Assembly (NCBI GenBank): GCA_034190875.2
Contig: CM067358.1
Coordinates: 51,425,811 to 51,489,810, forward strand
Direction: 5' to 3'
Origin: Urechis unicinctus
Taxonomy: Eukaryota > Annelida > Polychaeta > Xenopneusta > Urechidae
Length of the DNA: 64,000 nucleotides
Numbering within the stretch: position 1 is the stretch's first letter; the number at the start of each line of letters is the position of its first letter. The notes beneath the pieces are model-generated. The model saw nothing but the letters and a program-made list of their open reading frames with translations, was not told the origin of the DNA and made no database searches. Below are positions 3,690-54,042 of the stretch, piece by piece. A program made the translations under genes and the position numbers.

Positions 3690-5254
3690 TATTTCCACAT
3701 AAAAACATTGTGGCTCGCAATGTAGCATACCATGTCGTTCCAATATCAGTGGCAATGCAATTTGCTTCAACCAACCACTGAATATGGTTTGTGTCAGCCA
3801 TGCCCTGATTAAAGCATTCTATCAAAGCATTACAGCAGGTGCATTATAGAAATGTACAAACTATATTCGCGTTAATGCAGCCTGCCTTAATGATGATGTT
3901 GATGAACACACAAATAACTTGCATAGGTTGTGCGCCATTTCCACGAATGTTTGATTATTTGCAAATTGTGTCACGAAAAGGTGATTCCAGAAGAAATGTA
4001 TTTCGCCATTTCTTTTACTGGGATGGTCTGTTTGCATGGGATGCAGCGCATTGATAAATTGCAGGTTTGTTTCTTGTTCTATGTAGTTGTCAATTAATAC
4101 ATCTTCAGAGATTCCTTTATCCAATGCCAGTTCCCAGTACCCCTCCGTAAACTTAAATGGCGTTTCACATTTCCAACCAAAGCCGCCAAAACTGTTACCA
4201 TCAAATAATAAAACATCAGCAGTCGTTCCATGTACTTAAAATAGTATGATCAATTGGAATAAATATATCTATCTATCTATCTAATCCATTTTTATAAAAC
4301 TTGTACTCAGAATAGTATGATCAATTAAAATAAATATATTTATCTATCTAATCTATCTTTTTAAACATGCAATATGGATCTTGATGTTAACCATCCTTCT
4401 GCAGGAAAGCCATGTAAAGCAAACAATGAATGGACAATGGTTAATCGATTCTGAATAAAACCATACTATTGACTGTTTGTCTATTCCTCTGTGTTATATA
4501 GTAGCTTAACATATATATTAAAAGGCATTTTGATATATAGTTCACTTATTCTTCTATGAATATTCTCATTCAGTAAACCAATGACACAATGGGCACTTTC
4601 CTATTTTGGCATTTGTGCATACTGTGTGCCTCTGTATGTAAACTAGCAGAAATAAGTACCATTTTCATCCGATTCAAGAACATTGTGATATCCGCATTGA
4701 GTTGTGTAATAAAATACTCACTCTCAAGAGCCTTTACCGAGTACAATGAATGCAACAGCATGATAATTGGTTCAACATCATCCTGTCACATCGAAAATTT
4801 CGCTGAACAACCGACTATTTAATGTAGCTTAGCGGATAGTCCAACGGTGCCGCGTCCTCCAATCATCCATCCGTCCGTTGCTTACATGTGGCTTCGTTGC
4901 TGATAAGAAATGCCCAGATGCATAAAACACGACAGGTTTCTTGTGATTACAAATTAGTATCCATGAATAGTGTGTGTACTTAGTGAACAGATTGAAAGGA
5001 ATGTTTTGCTCTCGAGAAGTTTGGGAACATAGGATATTTATTGCTACGGCTGACAATATCATGGAATGACTTTGTCAGTATGAATGCGGTTAACACAAAG
5101 TATTTCAGATTGTAACGTTATCATTTTTACTCCGATAAGCTGATAAAGTAAGCAATAGGATGATTTATCTGACACGCTGTAATCATACGAGTCGGTGACA
5201 TTATGATAAGTGCATGGTTTTAATAACTTCTGTCCAGCGGATTGAAGCCCCGAC
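3690..5254. repeat. Segmental duplication, copy 1 left part
   Basis: This stretch matches 55852-58105 base for base over long runs with scattered substitutions, in the same orientation. It lacks about 770 bp that copy 2 has at roughly 56395-57165. It carries a local tandem duplication at about 4230-4360: the phrase acttaaaatagtatgatcaa recurs in near-identical form about 75 bp later, followed by TCTA repeats. No gene is recognised. Confidence 0.85.
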
Positions 5255-5258
5255 TTAA

Positions 5259-5269
5259 AGTGCAAGTAA
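5259..5269 (+). repeat. Left terminal inverted repeat of the transposon
   Basis: The sequence agtgcaagtaa directly follows the TTAA at 5255-5258. It is the exact reverse complement of 11437-11447. This short repeat adjoining TTAA is the expected terminus for this superfamily. Confidence 0.85.
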
Positions 5270-5429
5270 TGGGTAAAATATGAATTTTCGGGATCTTATA
5301 GAACGCGATTTTCTGATCAATAATTTGCAGTTCTTTTTTCGATCCGACGCGTAGTAAACAAGAAATAAGCAAAAACAAACAACACATTCCGGAACTTCCC
5401 GACCACACGCCGAAGATGAACGAAGGCGC

Positions 5430-5448
5430 TGTGACGTCATATGTCACC
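5430..5448 (+). promoter_or_regulatory. Subterminal 19-bp module with CRE palindrome, transposase side
   Basis: The sequence tgtgacgtcatatgtcacc is repeated in inverted orientation at 11240-11258. It contains TGACGTCA, the consensus cAMP-response element bound by CREB/ATF factors, and is itself nearly palindromic (gtgac...gtcac). It lies 171 bp inside the left end and about 110 bp before a good splice donor at 5561 that would end a 5'-untranslated exon. It could be a promoter element, a transposase (THAP) binding site, or both. Confidence 0.6.
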
Positions 5449-5904
5449 AGAAGATGTTGCCACGGACGCCGTTTCTATTCGCGAACTAGCTGTCGTACTG
5501 ATTTATCGCTTTTTATAGACACTCATCAGCGTTTTTGTGTCCATCGTTTCTTGAGAATCTGTAAGTATACTCATCCTTACATTTCCCATATGATAGTCGA
5601 ATTAGAATTCATTAATTATGTTTCTGTACTGATTTTTTGAAAACAGAATTTGCACTTGCCCGATGACAAAATTGGCATGGCCGGTAGTGATCAGCGTTGG
5701 GCGGCTCAAGTTTTATAAGGCTGTTCCACAGATAACATATAGATTTGTCTCGTCAGGCTCCCATATGTAGATGTATGATTGCTTGCACTTGTCTTAGACA
5801 ATCCTCGGGCGATACCCAGGGCCAGTGCTCAGTGAGTCAGTCCTTGCCTACTGTCAAATTTGCTTCATATAACTTTACCCTTATGTCTTCCAGTCTGTAT
5901 CATC
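5449..5904 (+). other. Probable 5'-UTR exon and first intron of the transposase gene
   Basis: A strong donor (gtaagt) starts at 5561 and a pyrimidine-rich acceptor (tcttccag) ends at 5893, 11 bases before the ATG at 5905. The transposase mRNA therefore probably starts downstream of the CRE module, with a non-coding exon ending at 5560. The start site itself is not visible (no clear TATA box). Confidence 0.5.
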
Positions 5905-8900
5905 ATGGTGCGAATATGTGAGGCCCAGTTCTGCAATAATTCGCATCTAACAGGACATAGTGAGCATGTTTTTCCTAAGGAAAATGCTCGAAAACAATTG
6001 TGGGTGCGCTTTGTTCGTACCAAGAGGGCAAACTTTGATGTGCCAAGTGCAACCTCTAGGAGGTTTCTGTGCAGTGCACATTTCACTCCAGAGTCATACC
6101 AGGACCAGCTAAAGTTTGAAATGGGCATGTCACGATTTTCAAGGCGAATTCTCGAGCCGACAGCTGTCCCAACCATCCACGCAACAGCCCCGGATGCTAA
6201 CCCACTGAAGCGGCCCTTGTCGGATAACCAAGATGACAACAAAGGCCGCAAGAGTAGAGCATTGGCAAAACGGGAAATTTCTAGGGTAAGAAGATCAAAC
6301 AAAATTTCAATTACATGGAAAAAAATTCTATACAAAAATGTTTTTCTCTCTTGGGGAATGGGCTGCGTTATATAGAACCATTATTGTGAGTGGATAACCC
6401 CTTCTGCATGAACCCCTTATTTTTATCACTGTGTGTCATTCCATAGGTATTGGCAGCTAGCAGCAATAATAAAGAATCAAGTGAGCAAGAGGTATGTATT
6501 TAGTCAGTCATGTCTTACAGATTCCTAACAGTTCCACTGCGATAAAAGATTATTTTTATAAGATTTAATGAATCAGCATTAATTGGTTAATATTTGGCAA
6601 CAGGCAGTGTTGCAAGATTGGAAAATATTATTATTTATTGTATATAATAAATGGCCAGCCGTGTGAAAGGTATGCATTTATGAAATTTGTTATGTTCAGG
6701 TATCCACTGACATTAAGCCACCCATTACAGGTGAATTATTCTACAAGTCGGCCTGCGTTCAAACACAGCTGCCACACTTCAGGAGTAAAAGTAAGAAAAT
6801 AATGGTAATCAGCAATATATGACATATTCTCACACATTTGAATACATTAGCAAAATTGCACTTTTGCATCAGGTGTTGGCACCAAGCATGTTGTGATGGT
6901 GGATGCATCAACTCAATACGGACCACCTATCTCCTCTCCATCAAAGGGTGCACCCCCTCTGCCATTCTTAGAGGAAAGCCCAATCAAAGAGGACAGAGAC
7001 TCTGATTACAAACCATCAGACCAGTCCCTGCAGGAGATAGATATTGAAGTCACTGACAGGTAAGAGGTTCTTTCAGCTGGTAAGCCTTCTATATTCATTT
7101 TGAATCCATATTGGTTGACATGCATCCATGCTGACAAGAGTGCTAATTTTACCATAGAAGCAGTCACATTCTCATATGTTTCAGATCATTGAAAGAGACA
7201 GGACCAGCTGACATGCAGTATGAAAGGAAGTTTTTAGTCTTTGAAAGCCAACTGCTGGAATTATTCACATCATGTCCCATCTGTACTGGACCATGTGTGG
7301 CAAATGTGATTAATTTAATTGGTACTCTGGTACAAGTGCAACAGGTATGCCAGAATTGCCACTTTATGCGTACATGGGCCAGTCAACCTTTCATAGGTAA
7401 AATGCCTGCTGGAAATTTGCTGCTGTCAGCTGCCATCTTGTTCTCCGGGTCACTCCCTACGCAAATGCTAAGGCTCTTCAATTTTCTCAAGGTCCCTGTT
7501 ATGAGCCGAAACACATATTTCCGCCACCAGAGAGATTACCTCATCCCCATAGCCATCAACAGTTGGAGAAGAGAACAAGCTGATGTCATTGCTACCCTAA
7601 AATCAATGCCAGGTGGTCTACATCTTGCTGGTGACGGTCGCTGTGATAGCCCGGGGCATTCAGCGAAATATGGCGGCTATAATGTCATCGAGCAGCGCAT
7701 CAACAAAATAGCTGACATCAAGTTGATTCAGGTGAGTTGTTGCTCAAACAAGTTCCATATCTGGCTAAATCATTATGTTATATATCTTACAAATTTGAAT
7801 ATTAACCCTGTATGTAGAGCAGTGAAGTGGCAAACAGCAATGCTTGTGAGCTGGAGGGCCTCAAACGAAGCATGTCATTTCTTTTGGATGACCAAGGACT
7901 CCAGTTGGACTGCATCATCATCACCGACAGGCACAAGAGTATCAATAAGTACATCCGTGATGACCTCACCAACAACCACCCAAATGCCGCTGGTGTCCAA
8001 CACTACTTTGACATTTGGCATGTAGCCAAAGGTGACAATGCCCATCAAAATTAGGAAGAGTTTTTTAAGTTAATTTAACTCAAACTAAATGTTAATAAAG
8101 GAAAATACAAATACTGAGTGAGATATAAAACACTGCTAATAATTATTTGATTCTATATAATTTCTGCAGGTCTTGGAAAAAAGATTGATGCACTGGGGAA
8201 GAAAAAGGATTGTGAAGACATTGTATTATGGAAGAAATCCATCATAAATCATGTGTACTATGTGGCTGGTCATTCAGTACCTGATGGAGTAGCTAGGGCT
8301 GATATGGTTGAGGCCATGTGGACATCACTGCTAAACCACATTCGTAACCTCCATGTTCATGTCAGTCCAATATACCCTCAGTGTGAACATCCACCACTTG
8401 TTGGAGCCGAGAGGCAAAAACAATGGTTGGAACTAGGTAAATGTTGGCATTTTAGAAAAACAAAAAAATAGGTCAAGCAAATTTAAGAATGAAGTCTGAA
8501 AATGGTATTCATGAATGGTATTTTGTGAGTCGGTATATAATAGAACTTGTTTGGTACAGACAGCAAAGCCAGTGATTTACTAGAAGATGTCATCCTTTCC
8601 AAGGCCTTAATCAAAGACCTCGTCAAGATGTCACCATTATATCAAACATCTACTCTGGAGGCTTTCCATAGCTTGATAATCAAATTTGCACCAAAACATA
8701 CTGGTTTCATGTGGCTCTGTCAGTATGCAAGGTGTGTTGGTTTGATATGTAATTATGTTTACAAAATTGTTTGTGTACCCTGGCCTGCCTTAATATATTT
8801 TACATTTCACCTTTTCACTTGGTTCTTTGTTTGTGGTATTTGAGCATTGATGTATCTAAATATGGACACATGAAACATTTCAACCTCAAAATTTATCCAT

Positions 8901-9367
8901 CAAATTGTGAATTGCTCTACCGGCTATGTTTTCAAGGTATTGTCTTGCTGCTCTTCACTTCAACCACAACAGTGGTAGACTACAGGCTGTGACCAGAAAT
9001 GGAAGACCGCGGTTTTCTCTCAGATTTCCCAAATTCAAGAAGGGGGAGTACACAATACGCAAAGACAAAACTCCATCTACATATGGTTTGCTTATTTAAA
9101 ACTCCATCATTTTATGAAAAATAGGTCTTCTCCCACTGTAAATTCCTGTGTATTAATCAAGATAAAAGCAATTATGTGTATGTTTATGCAGGGTATGTAG
9201 AGGGAATGATGCAGAGCCTTCTTGAACAATACTCGGCTAGTCCTACCCTGCTCAAGAATTCCATTGCAGAACTCCGGGCCAATGAACCAGGAACACTTGC
9301 TGAAATGTATGACTACCCTGACAAGGACAAGGCTGAGAGGCAGCATATGGAGAGGTTTCTTCTTTAG
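5905..9367 (+). CDS. Kolobok-type transposase with N-terminal THAP zinc finger (10 exons, 742 aa)
   Basis: Exons: 5905-6285, 6447-6491, 6700-6790, 6873-7059, 7185-7731, 7818-8031, 8170-8436, 8560-8731, 8937-9085, 9192-9367. All junctions are GT-AG and keep one frame to the TAG at 9365. Residues 1-90 form a THAP DNA-binding zinc finger (MVRICEAQFC at the start, then a conserved Trp and FLCSAHF). A Ser/Asp/Pro-rich linker follows. C265xxC268 and C290xxC293 look like a zinc knuckle. The RNase-H-like core shows AGDGRCDSPGH (D385), IITDRHKSI (D454) with FDIWHVAKG just after, and TSTLEAFHSLI (E611), the plausible DDE triad. These motifs match a multicopy animal transposase family that I assign to Kolobok/T2. 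The absence of stops or frameshifts suggests recent function. The product would act in the nucleus on the element's ends. The Kolobok name rests on TTAA, THAP and remembered motifs, not on a database search. Confidence 0.88.
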
Positions 9368-9982
9368 AAGAGGTAGGGGAGGGGAGGTGGTAGAAGCATT
9401 ATTTAGGTGGTTGGTCGATTGATGTTTTCTCAATATCAAAGGTCTTAAACATCATTGGTGAGGTAACTACCACAATATGACCTCTGATGTTGAAAGTGAT
9501 GTTAAACAACAATATTAACCATTTTTATTTTCTAATCATCCAGCTTGTGTATGGCTTAAAGTCTTGATTTGAATGTTAAATGGGTCTTAGGTAAGCTAAG
9601 CTCTGGTGAAACTCAAAAACTGCTATATGCTTCCGCTTTGTGGCTTGCTGAGAACTAATCTTGTAAATATATATGTTGGACTGGTGTATATATTTTGCCA
9701 TTTCTATTATCACAGACAAGTGAATAAGAACCAGACATTGTTGGTATTTGTGAGCAGAATTGTATAAGCATTGCTTGTATAATGTACCCGCAAAATTTAA
9801 TCATGATGATTGATACAGGATAGATAAAATATCCTGCAAAAAATATTGATTTACTGTTAACATACTGTTATTTGAGTGACACAACATCTTTTGTATGAGA
9901 TATAGGATACAGGAACAAGATGCCCTGCAGGTATGTCATGATTTTGGAATTGATGCTTCCTATCATGTTATGCATATGTTAT

Positions 9983-9988
9983 AATAAA
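9983..9988 (+). terminator. Candidate poly(A) signal for the transposase gene
   Basis: An AATAAA hexamer lies about 615 bases after the transposase stop codon and 126 bases before the opposing gene's own signal. It is the best-placed signal I saw in the 3' flank. Use is inferred. Confidence 0.35.
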
Positions 9989-10113
9989 TAAGGTGGACCG
10001 CCCTCGACTGAATTTTGAAGCTGGTTGTCATCTGTGTGTAGTATCATCTATAGGTTCTTATATTTTTGAGCAAAGTAAATAACAGAATAAGACACATAAT
10101 GCTTTTTTGTCCC

Positions 10114-10119
10114 TTTATT
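10114..10119 (-). terminator. Poly(A) signal of the ballast-domain gene
   Basis: On the minus strand the stop codon TAA (10120-10118) overlaps an AATAAA hexamer (10119-10114). This compact 3' end supports the exon reading and marks where the two convergent genes finish. Confidence 0.55.
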
Positions 10120-10951
10120 ATTCCAATGCTGGCAGTTTAAAACCAACATATACTGATTCACCCTTAGGAAAAACATCTCTAATTTTTTTTACAGCACAAG
10201 CTGGCAGTGGCACTCTATGATGTCTGCCTAAATATCCCCAGCACCACTGTACCAACTGCCTATATGCAGTGAATCGGAATAACCTGCAATATAAAGGGAT
10301 ATTTACAACTTTTCATTCAGTACATGAATATTATTCATCAGTTATCATCTGAACCAGACCATTTTTAAGTATACTCACTCATGCCGAGCAGCATGTTTCT
10401 TCTTGTACCTCTGGATGTAAGCACTATAAGCTATTTCTAGCGTCCAGGGACACAGGCACCCTGAGACAAATCCTGGGTGTGCTGTTATACAGGACACACC
10501 CATAGATTTGCGGAATTTCCTGGCAGCATTTACTCTCTGCTACTGTAAGCATTGGCCCACATGAGCCACACGAGCACCTAGTACAGGGCATAATTACAAT
10601 GAATAACTAGTATTTCAGCACACACACAAAACAAATGACATAAAACATGAATGAAAAGATGATTTGAACCAAGACTTAAGGACAACTGTAAAATAAAGAG
10701 AAAAATATCTGCAAACGGTTGGAGATTGTTTGGACTGAAATGTGCCATTACCAAGTGCTGTTGCCCAGTCGGCTCAAGTCCTCTTCTATTTGAGGAGAAT
10801 TTGCAGGCCTTGTCTTGGCTGGAGGCTCAAATCTGTATGGCTGTATTCCCCCACAGGCTCCTAGTTCCTCTTCTTGGTGAGAAGAACACTCACTGCTGTA
10901 ATCCAGCTCATCGCTTCCGGAGTTGTCTGTATATGAGGAAGACGAGGACAT
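10118..10951 (-). CDS. P2X7-receptor ballast-domain (P2RX7_C-like) protein inside the transposon, one frameshift
   Basis: Minus-strand exons: coding 10951-10752 (exon starting at 10979), 10577-10379 and 10283-10118, with GT-AG junctions. The product is about 187 aa. The N-terminus is acidic/Ser-rich and leads into GGIQPYRFEP at residues 34-42. Then comes the cysteine cluster RLGNSTWCSCGSCGPM...ESKCCQEIP, then CITAHPGF...CLCPWTLEIAY, then RFTAYRQLVQWCWGYLG and LPACAVKKIRDVFP. This order is that of the zinc- and guanine-nucleotide-binding cytoplasmic ballast domain of P2X7. No channel domain is present. A +1 frameshift separates the CCQEIP part from the CITAHPGF part, probably an extra A in the triple-T of the plus strand at 10507-10509. 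It could be a mutation or a consensus error. The gene runs tail to tail with the transposase. Its role in the element is unknown. Confidence 0.83.
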
Positions 10952-10979
10952 CTAGCTCCTTGATAACTATTAAACGGGC

Positions 10980-11239
10980 CTGAAATCGAGGTGCACACGT
11001 GTTCCAGCACTGTCTGTATTATCGCTCGGTCCCCGTTGATTGACGTTTTCACCCAACATAATATAAGTTTATCACAATTTAATGTATTCTAGGCGAACAA
11101 GTACTCAAAGCTACATGAAATGATGTGATTCGTTGCAGTATATGATGTACAAGATGACTGTATAAAATACGATTATGCTCACACCTACCACAGTTCCCAT
11201 GTAAACAAACGAGAAAATGACTGCGCTATCCGGCTGGAC
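10980..11239 (-). other. Probable 5'-UTR exon and first intron of the ballast-domain gene
   Basis: On the minus strand a donor (GTAGGT) begins at 11188 and an acceptor (TTTCAG) ends at 10980, just upstream of the ATG at 10951. A non-coding exon ending at 11189 would begin close to the CRE module at 11258-11240. The same CRE, non-coding exon, intron, ATG order is seen at the transposase end. Confidence 0.45.
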
Positions 11240-11258
11240 GGTGACATATGACGTCACA
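11240..11258 (-). promoter_or_regulatory. Subterminal 19-bp module with CRE palindrome, ballast-gene side
   Basis: The plus strand reads ggtgacatatgacgtcaca, the exact reverse complement of 5430-5448. It lies 189 bp inside the right end and about 290 bp upstream of the ballast gene's ATG. Confidence 0.6.
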
Positions 11259-11436
11259 AACTCAGGAGCCAATGGCTGTCGTTTTTTGCGCATATGCCAA
11301 AACGGTCCGAAAATCGAGGGAAATATTGAAAAAAAACCCACAAAATGACGTCTATGGACGAAAATATTGTCGGAAACGTCTTTCACAGGCTGAAATACAC
11401 CTAATAACACATTGATTAGGGATTCGAAAATATACG

Positions 11437-11447
11437 TTACTTGCACT
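11437..11447 (-). repeat. Right terminal inverted repeat of the transposon
   Basis: The sequence ttacttgcact is followed by the TTAA target duplication at 11448-11451. It is the reverse complement of 5259-5269. Confidence 0.85.
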
Positions 11448-11451
11448 TTAA

Positions 11452-13224
11452 GAAGATATGGAAATATAGCAGCATGCTTAACAAACAGAGACTATTTATC
11501 AGTAAAATAGTTGTCGGTATGAGGGGTTGACTATTAGAGCACTATTCATTTAATGCACTCTGAGAATTACGATGTGTTTACATACACAGACATCTAGCAC
11601 ACCGCCAAGGCTCGATGTTACATCATTATTATGTATAACCCCATTATAAAAATAATGAACGTCCATTGATATGACAAAAATAAATTAATAGATATAATAA
11701 TGATTTTACCTTACATTGGCTTGTCTAGGCTTTCGTCATGCTGATGTGTGAGTAACCAACCAAAACACACAGCATATTGCTTGTTGGGACGTATATGTTC
11801 GCTATTTGTTGATTCCCAGGCCTTTCTGATATCACCTAAGATTCATTCCCAAAGCGGCTTTGCAATTAATCCTTTAATATTTAATGCTTTGTCGACGTGA
11901 AGCAAAAAGAAAAGCAGTAATGATCAATGGGCTCATATTCGTGAGCGATAATGGTGTTTGGTATGACCGTCAAGGATATTCGCCACCAACATAACGCGTT
12001 TGTCGAATACATTGCGACGCCTCTTCCGTTATGTCCACGGTTTGATTGATTATTCTTTTACTATAAGCCATGACCTTTTCATTGTCATATACCAATACTC
12101 TATGTGCTGTAATGTGTAAAAATAATGATTGAGCATATGGTAAAGTTCACGAAATTATGTTTCCTTCTTCGTCATCCCGAAGCATCGTCGACTAGCAATT
12201 ACTTTTCAAAAAGTGAAATACTACTACTATCAGGCTAAAATAATCTTTTGCATATTAAGTGATTAATTTCAATATTAAGTGATTAATTTCAATAAACAAT
12301 GCGCAACCTCTGGATCAATCATGAAAAGAGGCACCTAATACGTGAACAGCTTTTGTGTTTTGGGACCCGTTTGGCAAACTCATTGACAAATGTAAGCATT
12401 ACACGCATATACAAACCCGTTCGAACTCATGATTCTTGGACATTATTTTAACAAGACTTAAAGTGTTAAAGCAAGCACTTCTAGCCAGCCAAGGAATATG
12501 CAGCAGGTGTGAGATAATGAACAAAAATGAGATAAGGTAGTGCCCAGATATCATCGATCAAAAGGATCGACATTAGCCAGGATCATGAGATAATGGGTAA
12601 ACTATGTTTAACCATCAAACCAGTTTTCAGATTTGAAAGCTTAGCTAGCTGTTGTAGGTTCTAGAGGCATAGATTACTGAGGTTTAATTGCATACAAAGT
12701 TGACAATATTTTGGCGCTTATGCACACATTACAATCCATCTCGTGGTCACAGGACACCACTGGTTAGCATTGGGACAAATTCAGAGTTACCTATTTCCTC
12801 ATGATATCTTCATGTGGTAATTTCCATAATCTTTGTGGTCTGTGCATGAAGCCCCAGCCATTGTGGCTGGCATATGTGGAGGATAATATGGCGACTAGAA
12901 TAAGTAACTACTAGAATAATCAAGGAAATACGCGCTGGCCATTAAAAAGTGATTCCTTATGCATGACTGTGAAATAAAATTTCCACCGGAAGTTACAAAT
13001 AAAGCTCGCAACAAAATATCAGGTAGTATTGTCAGCGCGTTTCAGATGAATTTAGGAGTACGTCCAGCATTCATAAGTTCTTTCGGTGAGGCAATTTGCG
13101 GATGATAAAGGGGATGGTCGCACAACCACCTTTCACTCACTGCTATATATGCTTCAGTAGAATCCCCGATTTATTCCGTTGTGCGACTGACAGTGATTGA
13201 CACCTTCATAGAGCATTCATGGTC
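11452..13224. repeat. Segmental duplication, copy 1 right part
   Basis: The stretch matches 58106-59874 at high identity in the same orientation, with a few small indels. It contains no recognisable gene. The match continues right up to the N gap, so the gap truncates copy 1. Confidence 0.85.
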
Positions 13225-13324: not shown

Positions 13325-15039
13325 TGTTCATATTGTATCAACTTGTGTAGGGCACAATCATAAAGTTTTTTTTATATCTTTCATATAAGGAGATACATTG
13401 CTTTTGCCTTTGGTCGCGTAAAACTGTTTGCCAGTGATTTGCTTTCAATCAACACCTAAAATCAACGTTTAACATTTTAAATTAAAGGTTCGAGTAGACA
13501 TATGATTCTGAATTATATGTGAGTTTAGATTACAATAAAACAAAGCATACCCGTCAATGTATTTTGGAGATTGGCACCTGATTATAACAAAACTAAGTTA
13601 ATTGTCCTTGTTATTGTGAAAAGTCACATTTACTTTAGGACGTGACATTCACAATGACACTTGAACTCTGTACATCATGACTGGACCATGTGTACTTCAG
13701 AAGCGGAAACATAAATAGCCTTGGCTTCGACGGCATGGTAAATCTGGTGTGTGCAATATATTTTATAACACTAACTTTTAACCAGTCAGGTCGTGTTTTG
13801 TGCTGCCTTAATATTTGCCGGTGTTTCGGCGTTTGCGTTATTGTTTAAAGATTTATCGTAAATGGCAATGAATGCTATTCATATAGAAACAATAATAAAA
13901 AATTGTTTGTTGAACCACCAATCATAAATAGATCACAGAAACACTAATCATATATAGACCACAGAAACACAAGTTTATGAAGTCATAGTATTGTGTTTTA
14001 TTTCGGTATCAAAATCCAAATAATCGCTGTTATTTAATGTGCCAAAATTAGAGGCAGCAATGTAACCAGAAATACATCGCTTCGGGGGACTTCCCTTGGT
14101 GATGGATGATATAGGGAAACACACTCGGACGATCTGCGTCTTCTTGTTTTCCCCATATCACCCATGCGACTATGCGATAACTAACACTGGCCTATCAGTG
14201 CTTTGGACCTTTACTATACTGACATGATTCTACAAATACAATAACGATTATGAATTGCCACATATCAGTAAGGTACCAATCACCGAAATGCTCATAGCAG
14301 TAATAGTGTTAGTAATAATTGTAGCAAAATTGTTGATAATGATAGTTGTAGAAGCCTTAGTATGAGGATATGTTCGCTACTAATAGACAGCAATTACCCC
14401 CAAAATCTAATACTGTCTTGATTTAGCTATATCTGCGATTTCTCCAAATAGATTGGCAATTAGCTTAACATGCACATTCAAAGCAGTACAAAGGGAAGTT
14501 AATCGATCGATAAGCCGGTCCGATCATATGATATCCATAAAAGCGGTGAGTAGATTGATGCCTGAATAACACCTAGCGCATCCACTCACATGATTGTTTG
14601 CATAAAGCTAAGACACTGGCTGATCCTCGACATAGTGAGTTCTATCAGTGATTGCTTATCATAATCATATGCCGCGAGGTACTGTTCAACGCTTATCCTA
14701 TCCTGATACATGAGTAGAACAGCACTAAAGTGTAATACGATATGAATATTTGGGCGTTGCAAAAACAGCTTTTCTACGCTATCGCTAGTGCCACGGGATG
14801 CTCTATGCAATCTTGCGTATTACGCGAATTACATTCACCAGATTTGTTTAAGATGTTGTGTTAAGTGTTATCAATGTCGCATAAAAATGTCTTAATAATT
14901 ATCATGATTTAGCCACAGGTTAAAGTATAGGTGTAATGGATGGAAGTTATATGCAACTGACGCTGCAAAATATTGTTCGAGAACTGTTAACTTTTGAGCT
15001 GATATCGCTGAATAACTTGAGGTGCGCGCTCTTTTTTAC
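13325..15039. other. Gene-free stretch
   Basis: Only short open frames (up to 74 codons) without family resemblance. No repeat or RNA gene is recognised. Confidence 0.5.
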
Positions 15040-18000
15040 GACAAGAATGCTAACCATAAAGACAATACTATAAACAATTACGACAAAAATATGAACGTTT
15101 ACGACTTGAATGCTTACAATAATGACAATAATATAAACAATAACGACAAGAAAGCTAACAAAACGACCGGAATATGAACAGAAGCGACAAGAATATCAAC
15201 AATAGCGACAAGAATGTGAACAGTAGCGACAACAATATCAACAATAACGACAGGAATATGAACAGAAGCAACAAGAATATCAACAATAACGACAGGAAAT
15301 TAAACAATAGCGACAAGAATCCCAACAATAACGACAAGCATATGAACAGTAGCGACAAGAATACCAACAATAACGACAAGTAATTGAACAGTAGCGACAA
15401 GAATACCAACAATAACGACAGGAATAGGAACAGTAGCGACAAGAATATCAACAATAACGACAGCAATAGGAACAGTAGCGACAAGAATATCAACAATAAC
15501 GACAGGAATATGAACAGTAGCGACAAGAATACCAACAATAACGACAGGAATATGAACAGTAGCGACAAGAATACCAACAATAACGACAGGAATATGAACA
15601 GTAGCGACAAGAATACCAACAATAACGACAAGATTATGAACAGTAGCGACAAGAATACCAACAATGACATCAGAAATATGAACAGTAGCGACAAGAATAC
15701 CAACAATAACGACAGGAATATGAACAGTAGCGACAAGAATACCAACAATGACATCAGAAATATGAACAGTAGAGACAAGAATACCAACAATAACGACAGT
15801 AATATGAACAGTAGCGACAAGAATACCAACAATAACGACAGGAATATGAACAGTAGCGACAAGAATACCAACAATAACGACAAGAATTTGAACAGTAGCG
15901 ACAAGAATACCAACAATAACGACAAAATATGAACAGTAGCGACAAGAATACCAACAATAACGACAAGGAATATGAACAGTAGCGACAAGAATACCAACAA
16001 TATCGACAAGAATATGAACAGTAGCGACAAGAATACCAACAATAACGACAGAAATATGAACAGTAGAATACAAGAATATACAACAATAGTAGCGACAAAA
16101 ATATGAACAATAGCGACAAGAAACAGTAGCAAAGAATAACGACACAGATATGAACAGTAGCAACAATAGCGACAAGAATACCAACAATAACGACAAGATA
16201 TGAACAGTAGCGACAAGAATATACAACAATAACGACAGAGATATGAACAGTAGCGACAAGAATATAACAATAGACAACAATATGAACAAGTAGCACAAGA
16301 ATACCAACAATAACGACAGAATATTGAACAGTAGCGACAAGAAAGAATACCAACAATAACGACAGAAATATGAACAGTAGCGACAAGAATAATACCAACA
16401 ATAACGACAAGAATATGAACAGTAGCGACAAGAATACCAACAATAACGACAGGAATAGAACAGTAGCGACAAGAATACCAACAATAACGACAGGAATATG
16501 AACAGTAGCGACAAGAATACCAACAATAACGACAGGAATATGAACAGTAGCGACAAGAATACCAATAACAATAACAGTAGCGACAAGAATATGAACAGTA
16601 GCGACAAGAATACCAACAATAACGACAGAATATGAACAGTAGCGACAAGAATACGACAGAAATACAGTAGCGACAAGAATACCAACAAACGACAACATTT
16701 TGAACAGTAGCAACAATAGCGACAAGAAGATAACAACAAATAACGACAAGCATATGAAACAGTAGCGACAAGAATACCAACAATAACGACAAGAATATGA
16801 ACAGTAGCGACAAGAAATACCAACAATAACGACAGGAATGGAACAGTAGCGAAGAATACCAACAATAACGACAGAAATATGAACAGTAGCGACAAGAATA
16901 CCAACAATAACGACAGGAATATGAACAGTACGACAAGAATACAACAATAACGACATATGAACAGTAGCGACAAGAATACAACAAAATAACGACACAAGAA
17001 TATACAATAACGACAACAGTAGCGACAAGAATCCCAACAATAACGACAGCAATATGAACAGTAGCGACAAGAATATCAACAATAACGACAGAAATATGAA
17101 CAGTAGCGACAAGAATACCAACAATAACGAACGAAATATGAACAGTAGCGACAAGAAGAATACCAACAATAACGACAGGAATATGAACAGTAGCGACAAG
17201 AATACCAACAATAACGACAAGAATATGAACAGTAGCGACAAGAATACCAACAATAACGACAGGAAATTAAACAATAGCGACAAGAATATCAACAATAACG
17301 ACAAATATGAACAGTAGCGACAAGAAAAATAACAATAACGACAATTGAACAGTAGCGACAAGAATACCAACAATAACGACAAGCATATGAACAGTAGCGA
17401 CAAGAATACCAACAATAACGACAGGAATATGAACAGTAGCGACAAGAATACCAACAATAACGACAGGAATAGAACAGTAGCGACAAGAATACCAACAATA
17501 ACGACAGGAATGAACAGTAGCGACAAGAATACCAACAATAACGACAGGAATATGAACAGTAGCGACAAGAATACCAACAATAACGACAGGAATATGAACA
17601 GTAGCGACAAGAATACCAACAATAACGACAGGAATATGAACAGTAGCGACAAGAATACCAACAATAACGACAGAAATATGAACAGTAGCGACAAGAATAT
17701 CAACAATAACGACTGGAATATGAACAGTAGCGACAAGAATACCATACAATAACAATAACGACAGAGCGACATGAATACAACAAGCGACAAGAATACCAAC
17801 AATAATATCACAATAACGACAGGAATATGAACAGTAGCGACAAGAATACCAACAATAACGACAGAAATATGAACAGTAGCGACAAGAATACCAACAATAA
17901 CGACAAGAAATATGAACAGTAGCGACAAGAATACCAACAATAACGACAGGAATATGAACAGTAGCGACAAGAATACAACACAATAACGACAGAAATATGA

Positions 18001-18592
18001 ACAGTAGCGACAAGAATACCAACAATAACGACAGAAATATGAACAGTAGCGACAAGAATACCACAATAACGACAGAAATATGAACAGTAGCGACAAGAAT
18101 ACCAACAATAACGACAGAAATATGAACAGTAGCGACAAGAATACCAACAATAACGACAGAAATATGAACAGTAGCGACAAGAATACCAACAACATAACGA
18201 CAGAAAATATGAACAGTAGCGACAAGAATATCAAACAATAACGACAGAATATGAACAGTAGCGACAAGAATACCAACAATAACGACAGGATAGGAACAGT
18301 AGCGACAAGAATACCAACAATAACGACAACAATAGGAACAGTAGCGACAAGAATACCAACAATAACGACAGAAATATGAACAGTCACGACAAGAATACCA
18401 ACAATAACGACAGAAATATGAACAGTAGCGACAAGAATATCAACAATATCGACAAGAATATGAACAGTAGCGACAAGAATACCAACAATAACGACAGGAA
18501 TAGGAACAGTAGCGACAAGAATACCAACAATAACGACAGAAATATGAACAGTAGCGACAAGAATACCAACAATAACGACAGGAAACGTCTGC
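15040..18592. repeat. 42-bp satellite array, about 80 copies
   Basis: The repeat unit is 42 bp and is built from two related 21-bp halves: aatatgaacagtagcgacaa(g) and aataccaacaataacgacag(g). The outer units at 15.04-15.2 kb are diverged, as expected at array edges. The core units are nearly identical. Because 42 is divisible by three, the array opens long frames on both strands: a 14-residue NMNSSDKNTNNNDR repeat on plus and ILVATVHIPVVIV-type repeats on minus. These are by-products of the repeat, since frames break at each indel and there is no gene context. Confidence 0.95.
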
Positions 18593-38801: not shown

Positions 38802-41800
38802 ATGGCGGACAGAAGATGCTCTAGCTGCTCACAAGCTTTCAAAAAACACGCAGGAGGTCTGCATCGTCGCACAGTTGCAAGCGTCGCTTCTCCAAGGACC
38901 ATACGGAAAGTTTTTGGAGAAGAAGTAGAAGGATATTTATGTTCCGATTGTGTGAAGCTGGTTAGCGCCCAAACCGTCCGTGTCAAACGCGGGAAGGTAT
39001 ACAGGAGGAGAATCACCAAACAAAGGTACGAAGAGAGCGTCAGACAATGAGTCCATAGGAAGCGTTTCTCGTGCGAAAGACCTATGGGAAACTGCTATTA
39101 TAGTCGAGGAAGGTGCAACGTCGGCACCCCCATCACCAGTTAATGATATACCAAGCGGTGATATGATGTAGATAGCTTTCGCGATAGGGCTGCGGAACTG
39201 ATAAGAGGAAGTAACTACGCAAAAGCATTCAGGATCCTTGCATCTCACTCCCCGTGAGCCCGTGATGCCATGGTGGAAGCTGTCAACCAGCAGGTCAAAA
39301 GGGAGATTGGACGCGTGACGGCGAGGAAGGCTCGGCGCTGTCACAAGATAGAGGCCCTAAGTGGTGATTTGACGATAGACCGCCTTCGCTGCTTTAACTG
39401 GGCTGAGGCGCTTGAGGAAGCATCACAGAAGCTGCCAGCAACTCACAAGGTCCTCGTTAACCTGTTCCCACCAGCAAAGAAATTCGCTTCTTCCAGGGCA
39501 AAAGGAACTCGCAAAGCCGAGCGGTAGGTCGCCTTTATGTTAAACACCTCGTGGGTGTGCATGTGTGTTAGCATGCTTGCTTGTGGGTGTGCATGTGGAG
39601 GTGGGTGTGATTCATTGTATGTCATTTAAATTGATCTATATAAGTATGATTTCAGGAACCAGATGATTAAAGAAGGCGACGCCATAAGACGCTGTCGTAT
39701 TGGCGTGGTTCTTAATTTGATTTTGTCCTCCAGCGCACCGACCCTCTATCGGTTTGTACATAAGTAGACAAATTAAACAATTATGCAAATATAATCCAAG
39801 TTTATGCAGCAACAAATGTGATTGTGAGCTCTCGACGCATAAGCAAAAAAAGCAGATGCAGTCCAATAACTGTTATAATTAATGTGTTAAGGCAATATTT
39901 GGTGTTTATTATGCATGCAGTTTTTGCCAAGCGTCGATGGGGGTCGGGGTGTGGCGGCAGGGATCAAGTCAGAAAGTATTCCGCCTACTCAACTACATTG
40001 GACTATCCCAAGGCGTCGGTGCAGCTCGGGCCCACGTTGACACGTTGGCGGAAGGGCACGATAGGTCTATCAAAGAATGGAAGAAAGCAATAGAAGTAAG
40101 TTTTTGAAGGATTGAGAATAGTGTAATCATAAACCGTAAAATTCAATCATATGTTATTTGACTTACATATAATTAAATATATGTCGTTGTGTTTCAGATT
40201 GGGAAGCACAAAGCAAGTGTGGCGACACGGTCAACATTAAAGAGTAATGACCGCTGCAGTTATAGCATCGGGTGGGACAACCTGTACATGGCAGTCCACA
40301 AAAAACATCAAGGGTTTCACCAAAAAAACAAGCTTTTGTCGATGGCTCTCTCTTTTGGAGTGAAACATCGTATCCCATCGCTTCACCTTACTGACACGAC
40401 CACTGTGAAAGCGTTGCAGATAAACCCATCTTGTTTTTTGCCGACCAAAGAGGACAACTTGGTGTTCCTGCAGCCGCGCTTGGTGACACTGGTTGAGCGT
40501 ATCCTCGTGACGCACGTTCCTGCTCTTCACTATCTCAGGAAGTATGTCACGTGGAATATTCCCCACGCCCATTCTCAAGCCATGACCCGCAAGTCGGAGG
40601 TAAGAGAGTTTCACATGGAACAAATTAGCACGCCATTATAAAAGCCTTTAACTATGAGACAAATCAAATAATTAGTGTTTATTTGTATCAGGTGTTGAAT
40701 CTTGGAGTCGTTGAAGCTGATCCGGCGTCAACAGGTGGTGTCATTGACATTATGTCACATCTCCACCAATACGTGCCCTCCATGGATAACGGACAGCAAG
40801 TGCATGCAATCCCTTGCAACGGGGATCAACTTAGTGTTGAACGAATGACACATGCGAAACACGCTCGTATTCCAGGCCCGGATCCAGCATCCCGACTTCA
40901 GGGCCTAGTTGAAACTCCACAGGAGTTCCACAAAGAAGGTGTACTTCTACAGGTAAAATGCCGTAATTAATAAGCAGTGTTCTGATTGAATGGTATATTT
41001 AATCATAGCACTTAATATAATGTTTCCCTGTTTTGTACTCAGGATTGGATGAACAAGTTCTTTAATGCAAAAAGCATAGAGAGTCGCGGGACCCTTTCTC
41101 AGTTAAAGGACTACTTCAATCACCGTAGCCTAAAGACCGAAGTCATGAGCAATTTCCAACATGTTTGGGATTTTCTCGAGGTAAACATTTAGCAAATATC
41201 CCTACAAATAAGCATGTGGATGTGTAGATAAAGTTTCAATTGATCGCAAAATATCAATCCCTATTAATAATATTTTTAATTCCAGTTCGTCACCGAGGGC
41301 TTTACTTTACTAAGCTTCATGATGCATTCCGGCATGACATCCTTGGAGAGTGCGCCTGGAGGATTGCCTGCACACGATGAGGAACAGAAAGCATGGTTAC
41401 ATCGGCTAGCAACACGCACAGTGGAACGCTGCTGGTTCCCCTACGCCGATGGTGACATCAATCTTGCTGTGGAACAAGCAAAGCAAGGACACAACCAAGA
41501 GGGAAGAGAAGGAGACGTGTATGCGTTCTGCTTTTGCCATGAAGGTATTCTTAAACGTTGATATTAAAAAATACATAAGATATAATAATTTTTTCACATC
41601 TAGATAAATGAATGATGATGAATATGTTCATGCAGATAAGGGAGGGGCCATGTTGGAATGTAGTAATTCCTTGTGCAAAGAATCGTGGTTCCACCTGGAA
41701 TGTATCCAACGCCCCCTCGACCAGATGCCCGATGGGGATTGGTACTGCAGCAAGGAGTGCCAACAATCAACAGGGTTCATCCATTGCGTATGTCGGAGGA

Positions 41801-42979
41801 AAAGAGGAAGTCCTGAAGATGAGCGCTTGCTGCGGTGCAAACTGAAATCGGATTGCCGCCGGATGCAGTTCTACCATCATCAGTGCGTTGATCCAGGCCC
41901 AGTTAATCCAAGTACGCTTACCATTTTTGTAATGCTAGAGTAATTATACTTCAAAAATTAATGTATGTCAGTTGACTCTAACGTTCTAAAAGTACATGTT
42001 TATTGATGTATAGACAACTGGTACTGTTCCGATGAATGTGCCTTCAAAGAAGAGGAAGATGATGGGGTACTCACCTACAGCAGGGCGCTCTTGTGGCAAG
42101 GACTGAACATGTTGGCGAACCGGGATGCGGTACGTGAGGGGGACGGGCCAGCTCTACTTACATTTTGGCGGCTCAACATGCCTCACTTCTGGCAGAATCA
42201 TCACCCAAAATACTTTATTCTAGGCCACCATCTCCTTGCAAGTAAGACCATCTAAGTGTCAAATGAGCCTGTAATTAACAAATGAGGAAGCTAATAAGAG
42301 TCTCAAGAAGTTACCCCAGGAGTAAATACATTGTTGCCCTGTCATTTAGATACTAGTGGATTCCTACCAGAACGGCTCTCACAGGAGCTGACTTGTGAGC
42401 GGGTCGCCAACCCAAGCGGTTGCAAGAGCAACAACATTGCCCTGGACCTCCTAAATGAATTCCTCAACAATGAGTTTAAGGGTAATATATTAAGAGCATT
42501 GATTTTAATTATAGCGATATTTAGGACTCGCATAGGACTTTTTTAAATGATGTATACACACCGATTAACTTTCTGTGTCTTTATGTCTGTTTATAGAGAT
42601 GCTGCTGAAATCCCGTGGTAATTACACTTCGCAGCAGATCTTGCGGTGTAGTCACCTTGGAGGTGATTTTGGGAAATCCATCGACAGCCTATTTCGGCAG
42701 GCATTAGGTGTTCCGGGTGAGGGTACTTGGCGGCGCAAGAAACCTGCTCAGTTTAATGAAGATTTAGTTAGATTCGTTAATGATTTCCGGCAGGACGCCC
42801 TATTTGATTATCTACCCCCAAGGTGCCACGTCGCCTTTGAAAATTTTAACATGCCATGTGTTATAAACAATCCAAAAAAACTTGGCGACAAGCTACGGGA
42901 GAGAAGTGCAAACATGGACTTTTGGCAACTACAGGCAGAGGCAAGAAATCACCGTCGAGCAAGAGCCGCACACAAATAG
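38802..42979 (+). CDS. DUF6589-domain protein with two PHD fingers (11 exons, one in-frame stop)
   Basis: Exons: 38802-39025, 39176-39523, 39921-40095, 40198-40599, 40692-40952, 41043-41180, 41286-41544, 41636-41911, 42014-42241, 42350-42481, 42597-42979. All are GT-AG and phase-consistent, giving about 941 codons. The N-terminus has a zinc-binding pattern (C6, C9, C47, C50). The DUF6589 core shows IGWDNLYMAV (D276) and CNGDQLSVERM (D428). Around residues 597-645 is a PHD finger (CFCHE...CSNSLC...HLEC...WYCSKEC). A second C/H-rich PHD-like finger follows (HCVCRRK...FYHHQC...NNWYCSDEC), then an all-helical C-terminus. A TGA at 39256-39258 interrupts the second exon within an otherwise collinear reading (SP-stop-ARDAM), probably from CGA by CpG decay. 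Intron 1 is my reconstruction, because a protein-like +1 frame also runs through it. Function is unknown. PHD fingers usually read histone H3 tails. Confidence 0.82.
41541..42060 (+). other. Double PHD zinc-finger module within the DUF6589 protein
   Basis: Exons 7-9 of the gene hold two successive C4HC3-type patterns split by introns. The first has eight ligands: C, C, C, C, H, C, C, C, ending in WYCSKEC. The second begins HCVC and ends in WYCSDEC. In the known family such modules bind methylated or unmodified histone H3 lysine 4, which suggests that this protein is targeted to chromatin. Confidence 0.75.
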
Positions 42980-46070: not shown

Positions 46071-46369
46071 AAGTGTACAACATTGAGACACTATACACAG
46101 ATGCATACATCATAACTGCAAGACCATCAATCAGGACCAGGTGGAGTTTAACAGTCATACTGGGTAAACAGAACTTCTGATAAAAAACTTCTACATTAAC
46201 AGATTGTTGAAGCCATACTCACACACAACAAATACAGATAATACTCATTGTTTCGGTCATTTTGGTCATTCTGATGGTTTTAACAAAAATTACATTTAGA
46301 CATAACATGTCTTTTTAAGCCCCAGTGATTGATATATCTCAACGGAATATAATAAACAAGAGAAGCCAA

Positions 46370-47835
46370 AACATTGATGAAGCCACAACATTGATGAAGC
46401 CACAACATTGACGAAGTCACGAAATTGGTGAAGCCACAGTATTGGTGAAGCCACAATATTGGTGAAGCCACAGTATTGGTGAAGCCACAATATTGGTGAA
46501 GCCACAGTATTGTTGAAGCCACAATATTGGTGAAGCCACAATATTGATGAAGTTTTAATATTGCTGAAGCTACAATATTGGTGAAGTCACAACACAGCTA
46601 AAGCCACAACATTGGTGAAGCCAAAATATTGGTGAAGCCACTGATAAAGCCAAAATATTGGTAAAGCCTTAACACTGGTGATGCGACAACATTGGTGAAG
46701 CCAAAATTTGGATGAAGGGATAATATTGATGAAGCTACAACATTGGTGAAGCCAAAATATTGATGAAGCCACAACACTGGTGAAGCCACAACATTGGTGA
46801 AGTCACAATATTGATGAAATCACAATATTGGTGAAACCACAACACTGGTGAAGCCACAACATTGGTGAAGCCAAAATATTGATGAAGCCACATTATTGGA
46901 AAAGGAACAGTATTGATGAAGCCACAATACTGATGAAGTCAAAATATTGATGAAGCCAAAGAATTGGTGAATCCACAATATTGATGAAGTCAAAATATTG
47001 ATGCAGTCACAACATTGGTAACGCCTCAACACTTGTGAAGCCAAATATAGATGAAGCCACGGTATTGGAGAAGCCACAGTATAGGTAAAGGCCACAATAT
47101 TGATGAAGCCACGGTATTAGTGAAGCCACAACATTGGTGAAGCCACAATATTGATGTCACAATATTGATGAAGCCACAATATCATTGAATCCATAACACT
47201 GGTGAGGCCACAACAATGTTGAAGCTAAAATATTGTTGAAGCCACAACATTGGTTAAAACAAAACACTGGTAGAGCCACAACTTTGGTTATGCCACATTA
47301 TTTGTGAAGCCACAATATTGGTAAAGCCACAATATTGGTAAAGCCACAACACTTGTGAAGCCACAACATTGGTGAAAACACAACACTAGTGAAGCCACAA
47401 CATTGGTGATGCCACAGTATTTGTGAAGCCTCAATATTGGTAAAGCCACAACACTGGTTAAGTCACAACATTGGTGAAGCCAAAATATTGGTGTAGCAAC
47501 AGTATTTGTGAAGCCTCAATATTGGTTAAGCAACAACACTGGTGAAGCAAACATTTTGATGAAGCCATAACATTGATGAAGCCACAACACTGGTGAGGTC
47601 ACAATATTTATGAAACCACAATATTTATGAAGCCACAATATTAGTGAAGCCACAGTATTATTGAAGCCACAGTATTGGTAAAGCCACAGTATTGGTGAGG
47701 CCACAATATTGGTAAAACTACAATATTGATGAAGCCACAATATTATTGAAGACACAGTATTGGTGAAGCCACAATATTGGTGAAGCCACAATATTGTAAA
47801 GCCACAAAACTGGTGAAACCACAATATTGATGAAG
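46370..47835. repeat. 17-bp minisatellite array (gaagccacaatattggt)
   Basis: Degenerate units of about 17 bp, with consensus gaagccacaatattggt, fill almost 1.5 kb (roughly 80 units). Since 17 is not divisible by three, minus-strand frames cycle with a 17-residue period (WLHQYCGFTNIVASPIL type). That pattern is a by-product, not a protein. Confidence 0.92.
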
Positions 47836-50839: not shown

Positions 50840-51105
50840 TCAACATGGCCAAAATGGTCGTTTTGGCCAAAATGTAAATTCAGGCAAATGCATTTAACGC
50901 CAAGAAAAAGAGGATAGTTATCCCGAATAATAAGATTCCAACCTTAGGAGGAGTAGAAGCAAATAAAGTTACGATTTTGTGGGGGGCGCAGCTGTGTAAG
51001 CCTATAGGATGACGCTGACTATTTTGGACCAATGATCATCGGCCAAAATGTAAGTATGGGCCAAGATGGTTGGTGAATTGTACCAAAATGGTAGGACTTG
51101 TATAA
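50840..51105. repeat. Cluster of CCAAAATGG motifs before the TA array
   Basis: ccaaaatgg or ggccaaaatg occurs about six times in 260 bp (for example near 50848, 50868, 51041 and 51090). This is the reverse-complement counterpart of the cluster at 34.8-35.1 kb. In both places the motif cluster abuts a TA array. Confidence 0.6.
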
Positions 51106-51114
51106 ATATATATT

Positions 51115-51182
<68 letters not shown>

Positions 51183-52650
51183 TATTCATATATATATATT
51201 TGTATATAGATATATATTTATATATATATATATATACATATAATATTTATATAATATATATATATATATTGCGTATATATATACATATGTTTATACATAT
51301 ATATATATGTATATATATATTTGTATATAAATACATTGATACATACATATATATATATAAATATATATATAGTTATACATATACATATATATATTTGAAT
51401 ATATATTTACATATATATACATATATATACATATATAGATATGTATATATATATATAGGGATATAGATATTGATACATATATATATAAATAGAGAGATTT
51501 ATACGGAGAGAGATACAGATATATAGATAGAAAAAGGGAGATATATAATATAAATATTTATTAAGGAAGAGTATATAGGACAGATATATAAAATATATAT
51601 AAATATATTCATATAGATATATTGTATATAGATATATATTTATATGTAAATATATATATATAATATTTATATATAATATATATATATAAATTTTTGTGTA
51701 CATATACATATGTTTATACAATATAAAATATATATATGTATATATATATATGTGTATAAATATATATATATTTAAATATATAATATACATATGTGTTTAT
51801 ATATATATGTTTAATTATATATATGAACGCAGATCGCGTATGTACATATTATATATATATTCTATATTCTCCTGTAGATATATATATATATATAAATCTT
51901 ATGGATATCATATATAGATAAGAGATATGCTCTCTATATAAATATATATCTCTCTCTCATCCCTATATATTATATCTTCGATATATATATTACGATATAT
52001 TCTAGAGATATATGTAGAGATATATGAATTATTTCTCTCTCTCTATATAGTATATATAGAGGGATATTATAGATGTTTATATTAGATTTCCTCATAGATA
52101 AAAAGTATCTCTCTCCTCTCTCTCCCCTTTCTATCATCTCTGATATATATCTATAGAGCTATAGAGAGAGAGAGGAGAGCAAGGAGAGAAAATATCATAG
52201 AAGATATAGAAATATAATATATATATTTAAATATATCTATATATATATATAGAGATATATATAATATATATTACCATATATAGACACCTATAAAATATAT
52301 ATAGATAAATGTATATATATAATTATATAGATATGAGAGATATCTATATATATATATATATATATAAACATATATGTGTGTATATATATGTTTAATATAT
52401 ATATGCATGCAGATATATGTATATATATATAGGTGGGATATGTATATAAAAATATTGATATATATATATATATAGGATATATTATAGAGACGATATAAAT
52501 TTGAATATTTATATATCATATATTTACATATATATACATATATATATACATAGTTTATATATATATCTCCTAATATATAGATAAATATAATATAATATAT
52601 ATAGATAATATATATATATATACATATATATATATATTTAAAATTGACGT

Positions 52651-52697
<47 letters not shown>

Positions 52698-52767
52698 TTT
52701 ATATTCTAATATATATAAATATACTAAATATATATATATATAGAGATATATATATATATACAATATC

Positions 52768-52801
<34 letters not shown>

Positions 52802-53417
52802 AATGTTACATATTTCCTATATATGTTTGTCTCTTATATATATCTATATATATATCTCTATATATATATGTTTATATCTTTAGGTATCTCTAGATATATA
52901 TTATTTATAAATCTCCTATATGTACATCTCTGTATCCCTATACATATGTTTATACATCCCTCTATATATATATTGTATATATAAATATATATAGATATAA
53001 ATATAAATACATAGATATGTGTGTATATATACATATTTACATATATATATATGCATGCAGATATAAATATATATAAAATATATATATATGTTTAATTATA
53101 TATTTATGTATATCTATACATATATGTATATATTTTTATATTTATATTTATACATATAGATATATATATACTCTATATATATAAAATTTATATGTATATA
53201 TAAATATATATATTTATCATATGTACCTATATAAATATATATATATATATATGGTTCTAAATATATATAAATATAAATATACATATGTGTGTATACATAT
53301 TTTTTTTATATATATATGCATGCAGATATATGTATATATATATATATGTATATATATATATGCATATAAATATATTGATGCATATATATATATAAATATA
53401 TATATATAGTTATACAT

Positions 53418-53456
<39 letters not shown>

Positions 53457-53888: not shown

Positions 53889-53898
53889 GTGTGTGTGT

Positions 53899-54042
53899 AG
53901 GCTAAAATCCGTCAGATCTAGGTATTTTTGAGAATGATTGATTGGATTACTTGCACATTGGATGTGTCGCCATTATATTCATGAAGTAACCAATTTTTTT
54001 TCATCACCCGGTATATACCTTTAGAATTTTATTCTCGGTAAT
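53899..54042. repeat. ~150-bp flank unit, first copy
   Basis: The stretch from ggctaaaatccgtcagatct to attctcggtaatatg recurs at 55654-55801, and in a slightly diverged form at 1314-1462. Each copy directly follows a TA array. Confidence 0.88.

Follow-up and report, generated by a model that had tools for sequence, protein, structure and literature searches.

The window described here is a stretch of 64,000 nucleotides from the genome of Urechis unicinctus (contig CM067358.1), in which positions 5255-11451 are occupied by an element flanked by TTAA; it has terminal inverted repeats (TIRs) of 11 bp and two convergent genes. One of these genes encodes a transposase with a THAP domain and the other, KolX, encodes a protein with homology to the ballast domain of the P2X7 receptor. 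There is little doubt about the identity of the element as a Kolobok transposon, and the overall reading, a Kolobok of the Kol0 type whose accessory protein KolX is supplied in trans, is likely to be correct. Elements of this kind regularly contain the ballast gene, which is not a one-off capture.

The element and its two genes

A preliminary description of this DNA had claimed that TTAA and matching terminal repeats bound the element, and this is what was found, the TIRs being perfect over 11 bp and placed next to TTAA on both sides. The perfect inverted pair CTTAAAGTGCAAGTAA and TTACTTGCACTTTAAG (5254-5269 and 11437-11452) comprises the TIR, the TTAA and one matching flank base, and the termini read AG...CT, i.e. 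RR...YY. A second inverted pair of 19 bp is sub-terminal and lies 175 bp inside the left end and 193 bp inside the right end. The window copy has TTAA on each side, and so have the three other copies for which both ends were available. In the same genome the left ends lie in TTAA with differing flanks at 8/8 left-end loci, and the exact right end followed by TTAA was found at 23 of 30 KolX loci. As the same ends are placed in TTAA with other flanks elsewhere in the genome, the ends of the window element are more than a chance resemblance.

The transposase gene is, as had been claimed, intact: its ten exons give an open frame of 742 aa, all nine introns are GT..AG and the THAP domain is recognized by Pfam (Table 1). 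The THAP features are CEAQFC at residue 5, W33, CSAHF at 56 and AVPTIH at 87, the criteria reported for this domain being a C2CH signature, the P/W/F residues and an AVPTIF-like box (PMC6004289). By motif inspection of the spliced protein the acidic residues D385, D454 and E611 were assigned, together with DIWH at 482, which lies between the second D and the E, where Kolobok transposases have C/DxxH; these would fit a DDE transposase of the Kolobok type. Between D454 and E611 the motif CEH (residues 560-562), seen by inspection of this single protein, may correspond to the H2CH finger criterion of Kolobok. The match to the Mutator-like transposase family PF20700 was weak (E=2.8e-4) and below its cut-off.

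KolX is encoded on the minus strand by three exons. The W of WCSCGSCGPM is split by intron 1 and both introns are phase-matched. The preliminary description had presented a spliced gene with the full set of P2X7 signatures; the signatures are present and the gene is spliced, but exon 2, which is 216 nt long in intact relatives, measures 199 nt in the window copy, and this 17-bp deletion shifts the frame, so that WCSCGSCGPM and CITAHPGF are no longer read in one frame and the window copy of the gene is broken. The P2RX7_C family (PF20478, curated cut-off 23.5 bits) was matched by the 3' piece, comprising the 3' part of exon 2 and exon 3, with E=1.1e-10 and 42.3 bits, and by the 5' piece below the cut-off (E=0.0017, 18.7 bits). 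Among 30 window-type copies (L009-L038, the loci of 30 of the 40 matches scored among 705 candidates in a DNA search with the ballast gene), an intact KolX frame of 193 aa with its splice sites is present in three, and one further copy has kept the frame with an altered second donor site.

Table 1. Features of the element, with positions counted in the window
Feature	Positions	Strand	Evidence
Left TTAA target site	5255..5258	.	Sequence; TTAA at 8/8 left-end loci
Left 11-bp TIR AGTGCAAGTAA (5'-RR type end)	5259..5269	+	Inverted-repeat search
19-bp sub-terminal inverted pair, left arm, contains TGACGTCA	5430..5448	+	Perfect match to right arm
Kolobok transposase gene, 10 exons, 742 aa, open	5905..9367	+	Spliced translation; motif inspection
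Transposase exons 1-5	5905-6285, 6447-6491, 6700-6790, 6873-7059, 7185-7731	+	Spliced model
Transposase exons 6-10	7818-8031, 8170-8436, 8560-8731, 8937-9085, 9192-9367	+	Spliced model
THAP zinc-finger DNA-binding domain, residues 5-92	5917..6180	+	PF05485 E=1.5e-11, 45.3 bits
KolX exon 3: RFTAYRQLVQWCWG and PAC...IRDVFPK	10118..10283	-	PF20478
KolX exon 2: CxCxxC and CC zinc cysteines (predicted), CITAHPGF; 17-bp deletion	10379..10577	-	Comparison with intact copies
KolX exon 1, acidic/serine-rich N-terminus	10752..10951	-	Spliced model, relatives
19-bp sub-terminal inverted pair, right arm	11240..11258	-	Perfect match to left arm
Right 11-bp TIR (YY-3' type end)	11437..11447	-	Inverted-repeat search; genome copies
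Right TTAA target site	11448..11451	.	Sequence; genome copies

Recurrence of the ballast gene in the host genome

The searches covered the host genome (1.19 Gb). With the left end of the element at least 40 matches were obtained (the best 40 of 693 candidates), and the eight best-scoring ones were taken without regard to the ballast gene. Four of these have a listed ballast match at the expected distance. The other four all contain ballast exons, three copies having the three exons and one having lost exon 3 by deletion; since these four are absent from the 40 scored matches of the ballast DNA search, that set of matches is incomplete. One copy was also chosen from a class of 23 rows, out of the 40, that share one score at 96%, and it contains ballast DNA as well. 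Ballast DNA is therefore present in 9/9 copies traced from the left end. Four more left ends pair with a ballast match at less than 8 kb, which is no independent test as they were found via that match; with these, 13 of the 40 left ends were followed.

The Pfam ballast profile gave at least 150 matches above the cut-off (the best 150 of 2592 candidates). The best 30 loci, which are the best-scoring and not a random sample, form two further repeat families, B (nine loci) and C (21 loci), the window type being A; the most divergent members of C are related over only part of their length. A convergent Kolobok transposase piece was found 3' of KolX, within the 1.5-kb flank, at 26 of the 30 loci. 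With the window transposase as query a match was obtained at only three (L043, L045 and L047), because the transposases of B and C have diverged, and queries from B and C were required. The proposal made in the preliminary description, that ballast genes are regular passengers of TTAA elements, is borne out by these 26 loci and by the nine left-end copies, and no copy lacking the gene, as expected of the one-off capture which it had set against that proposal, was met among the nine.

The nucleotide distances of neighbouring KolX and transposase are correlated in B (r 0.91, permutation p 0.003, nine loci) and in C (r 0.46, p 0.0015, 17 loci), which is the shared history of neighbouring DNA and nothing more; the comparison of trees proposed in the preliminary description is covered in part by these DNA distances. 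For codon-row distances, from rows misaligned by frameshifts, the values in B were r -0.23 (p 0.82) and r 0.04 (p 0.36), and in C r 0.44 (p 0.0015, 11 loci).

The homology of KolX to the P2X7 ballast is solid. The intact window-type protein matched P2RX7_C with E=1.3e-15 (58.3 bits), and a profile of the three families retrieved from PDB, at E<=0.01, only P2X7 chains (4/177,635 distinct sequences, best 7.2e-24). A phmmer search of PDB with the 5' KolX piece had as its sole match an unrelated protein (E=0.39). Seven cysteines (C68, C70, C73, C84, C85, C102 and C168) are invariant across the three families. The rat P2X7 ballast is reported to have a guanosine nucleotide site formed by R546, H547, R574, R578 and K583 (PMC7016195). 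According to the alignment, equivalents of R546 and R578 are kept in 3/3 KolX families, that of K583 in the window type only, that of H547 in family C only and that of R574 in none. That each of the three families keeps two of the five residues would lend weak support to a nucleotide site in KolX, and these residues could equally be structural.

In a Pfam search the proteins of the element gave no match to the P2X channel domain. A search of the host genome for P2X receptors gave 15 matches, all on contig C15 and at least about 254 kb from any scored ballast place on that contig. It is unlikely that a P2X-ballast fusion was missed, given the places scored (the best 150 of 2592 candidates in the ballast family search and the best 40 of 705 in the DNA search).

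Some further observations concern these families. L047 (C15:59502478) and L045 have a stop-free ballast frame (an open frame of 211 aa in L047) with no convergent B or C transposase in their flanks and with a diverged fragment of window-type Kolobok beside it; each is a candidate for a stranded or adopted gene. In family B a cysteine cluster is placed upstream of KolX, on the same strand, at 7/9 loci (L040, L041, L042, L044, L046, L048 and L060), being partial in L048 and containing a stop in L044; it was unmatched in L052 and L053, and its position is exemplified by L070:3203-3328, L070 overlapping L040. A Pfam search of this cluster found no family, and we take it to resemble half of a CXC/tesmin-type domain. 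It may be a KolX exon which would give the protein a DNA-binding N-terminus. Moreover, many rows of the ballast profile search (profile 143-191, open frame of 59 aa) have near-identical scores of about 37-38 bits. These rows may stem from a further repeat with KolX that has multiplied recently, or from additional copies of the window type.

Selection on KolX and the derivatives with a dead copy

The ratio of the proportions of non-synonymous and synonymous differences (pN/pS) was calculated from pooled Nei-Gojobori counts, and the values given are proportions, not fitted models, from pairs that are non-independent. For KolX the ratio was 0.38 in family B (six stop-free of nine loci, the other three having stops) and 0.25 in family C (six of 21 loci; 14 have stops and L062, with <90 codons, was dropped). 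An intact window-type copy compared with 20 derivatives of the same type gave a mean of 0.30, and among the derivatives themselves the ratio was 0.87, near neutral. KolX is constrained between lineages and near neutral in the derivatives.

These derivatives (L019-L038) all have a stop at KolX codon 33 (20/20) and retain the gene as a pseudogene. Their transposase is deleted in at least 18 of the 20: a common deletion (about 5949 joined to 7855) is present in 16, and L030 and L031 are cut by a variant deletion or by a second junction (7965 to 9279). The available flanks of L026 and L037 gave no match to the transposase. Among the 15 derivatives with an exact right end there are 14 different flanks (L022 and L023 share one), which indicates separate insertions. 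L018, which still adjoins transposase DNA, shares this stop, and codon 33 is also a stop in L016; the one copy of the 96% class that was read has the same deletions as the derivatives, its codon 33 (exon 1) lying beyond the stretch read. The idea that KolX is kept intact in transposase-less derivatives was rejected, as the stop is shared by 20/20 and the evolution is near neutral. As the derivatives multiplied despite their own dead KolX, the KolX protein, if needed, acts in trans. Many of the copies L018-L038 also have, in the stretch from KolX exon 1 to the right end, an extra segment of ~350-500 bp which the window copy lacks; its borders are formed by a direct repeat of 18 bp that matches window positions 10957-10974.

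The presence of selected KolX families together with multiplying derivatives in which KolX is dead indicates a selected gene acting in trans. The best supported statement is that KolX is under selection while the transposase lives and is supplied in trans, and it is likely to be an accessory gene which selection maintains and which the element does not need in cis. Several results weigh against this. The lowest ratios come only from stop-free copies of at least 90 codons (6/9 in B, 6/21 in C), and all 21 rows of C, with stops skipped, gave 0.37. In the A copies that have transposase DNA (ten, L009-L018) the KolX ratio was 0.70, a value in keeping with decay after insertion as the source of much of the change. 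The C-terminal pieces of the transposase gave 0.64 in B (7/9 stop-free) and 0.67 in C (8/11), a weaker constraint than that on KolX, which is not leaned on here since the rows include misaligned frames. Furthermore four of the 30 B and C loci (L045, L047, L058 and L059) are without a convergent B or C transposase nearby.

Outside the element, the window contains large tandem arrays at 15038-18584, 46362-47835 and 51101-55273; they comprise a minisatellite of 42 bp, an array of 17 bp and some 4 kb of TA-rich repeat. It also contains a PHD-finger stretch at 41608-41940 (PF00628, E=1.1e-7), which may belong to a gene, and near it an open frame at 42569-42979 had no Pfam match. A tRNA search of the window found none, and an Rfam search gave no match at the gathering threshold.

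Relatives of the element and the role of KolX

Kol0 Kolobok elements have been reported to encode KolX, which adopts the ballast fold; P2X7 is said to have originated when a P2X4-like gene was joined to KolX, and Nanor to be a likely domesticated KolX (Kojima & Bao 2022, PMC9587614). The novelty suggested in the preliminary description is therefore lost, and the window element is a further instance of the published kind. With the Kol0 reference (Kolobok-1_XT type, as described in PMC9587614) it shares TTAA sites, RR/YY ends, a DDE transposase with DxxH and a KolX with ballast homology and cysteines, features which would place it in the Kol0 lineage. It differs in that its KolX is frameshifted and that the same genome contains two more diverged KolX families, along with a family of derivatives in which the transposase is deleted and KolX is dead.

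With the P2X7 ballast (P2RX7_C, PF20478) KolX shares the seven zinc cysteines and the equivalents of R546 and R578 in 3/3 families; unlike the receptor, it has no P2X channel part, and H547 (family C only), K583 (window type only) and R574 (none) are not common to the families. The ballast domain was described across animals in host genes, fewer than 10 per species, with capture by a P2X4-like gene proposed (Rump et al. 2020, PMC7016195); transposons go unmentioned in the main text of that paper. KolX resembles the NANOR and ZCD proteins reported there in being short and in having the same cysteine domain at the C-terminus, but here at least 150 matches were scored and 26 of the best 30 adjoin a convergent Kolobok transposase. 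According to the legend to Figure 6 of PMC7016195, ballast genes are linked to two markers in an ancestral synteny that extends from sponges to molluscs and echinoderms. That inference took no account of possible residence in transposons, and it deserves to be re-checked.

The proposed mechanism would be as follows. The THAP/DDE transposase would cut the element out at the inverted ends that adjoin TTAA and paste it into new TTAA sites. KolX would be a small protein which binds zinc and has the ballast fold of P2X7, and it would aid the element in trans as an accessory protein, its most likely partner being the transposase or the ends of the element. We infer this cut-and-paste action, the binding of zinc, what KolX physically partners with and whether it takes part in cleavage, in pairing or in regulation. 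The role favoured here is that of a partner of the transposase which binds zinc, and for KolX as partner of the transposase or of the ends our confidence is tentative, somewhat short of even.

Membership of piggyBac, the other TTAA superfamily, with an acquired ballast-like gene can hardly be entertained. The target sites would suit it, and a few piggyBac families are reported to have a KolX-like C-terminal part; these are however said to lack most of the cysteines, all seven of which are present here, and the Kolobok criterion of 5'-RR...YY-3' termini, in which piggyBac differs (PMC9587614), agrees with the 5'-AG...CT-3' ends. It was rejected on the THAP domain, on the end type and on the D/D/E residues with the DIWH motif. 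That a single copy picked up a host ballast gene as mere cargo is very improbable. KolX is broken in the window copy, and derivatives without a working KolX have multiplied, as cargo might allow; the recurrence of ballast DNA in 9/9 traced copies nevertheless refutes such a capture in the host genome. Moreover the convergent arrangement is repeated in two diverged Kolobok families, KolX is under purifying selection and it has been published as a standing second gene of Kol0 Kolobok (PMC9587614).

More credit is due to KolX as a regulator of the transposase, for instance a repressor or a copy-number control, in place of a helper of the reaction. A trans-acting regulator would likewise be selected and not needed in cis, and PMC7016195 relays a hypothesis in which the relative NANOR regulates transcription. 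No direct counterpoint was found, and constraint alone cannot separate a helper from a repressor; this is an unlikely alternative. A cellular role outside transposition, such as nucleotide or zinc sensing, stress or some host benefit favouring upkeep of the element, is less likely again. The P2X7 ballast is cytoplasmic with a guanosine nucleotide site (PMC7016195), and relatives such as nanor are reported as host genes (PMC9587614, PMC7016195), which would agree with it, but KolX adjoins a transposase in 26/30 loci, and the near neutrality in derivatives (0.87) suggests that selection acts on the autonomous element.

A bolder reading is that KolX could be the guanine-nucleotide cofactor subunit of a THAP-type transposase, binding GDP/GTP and zinc and acting in trans, which we regard as improbable. 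It joins the guanosine site of the rat P2X7 ballast (PMC7016195) with the P element transposase of Drosophila, which is reported to require GTP, the bound GTP positioning the transposon ends (PMC7776569). The window transposase resembles that of the P element in its N-terminal THAP domain and DDE catalysis. It differs in that the P element protein is described as having its own GTP-binding insertion domain (PMC7776569), whereas the D454-E611 gap of the window transposase is 157 residues and KolX is a separate gene. A search aimed at a published P-element GTP parallel for KolX met none in the openly searchable literature. No published tests of KolX selection or cis-dispensability were met in that literature either, no search having been aimed at either.

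If the cofactor role were true, the guanine nucleotide site of P2X7 would be the leftover of a transposition cofactor, and a nucleotide site belonging to the transposition machinery would explain the presence of a guanine pocket on an ATP-gated ion channel. The transposon origin of the P2X7 ballast is already published, and what the host genome adds to it are the signs of selection on KolX and of its dispensability in cis. A single species with diverged, selected KolX families and with multiplied derivatives in which KolX is dead is a natural experiment, through which the role of KolX becomes testable.

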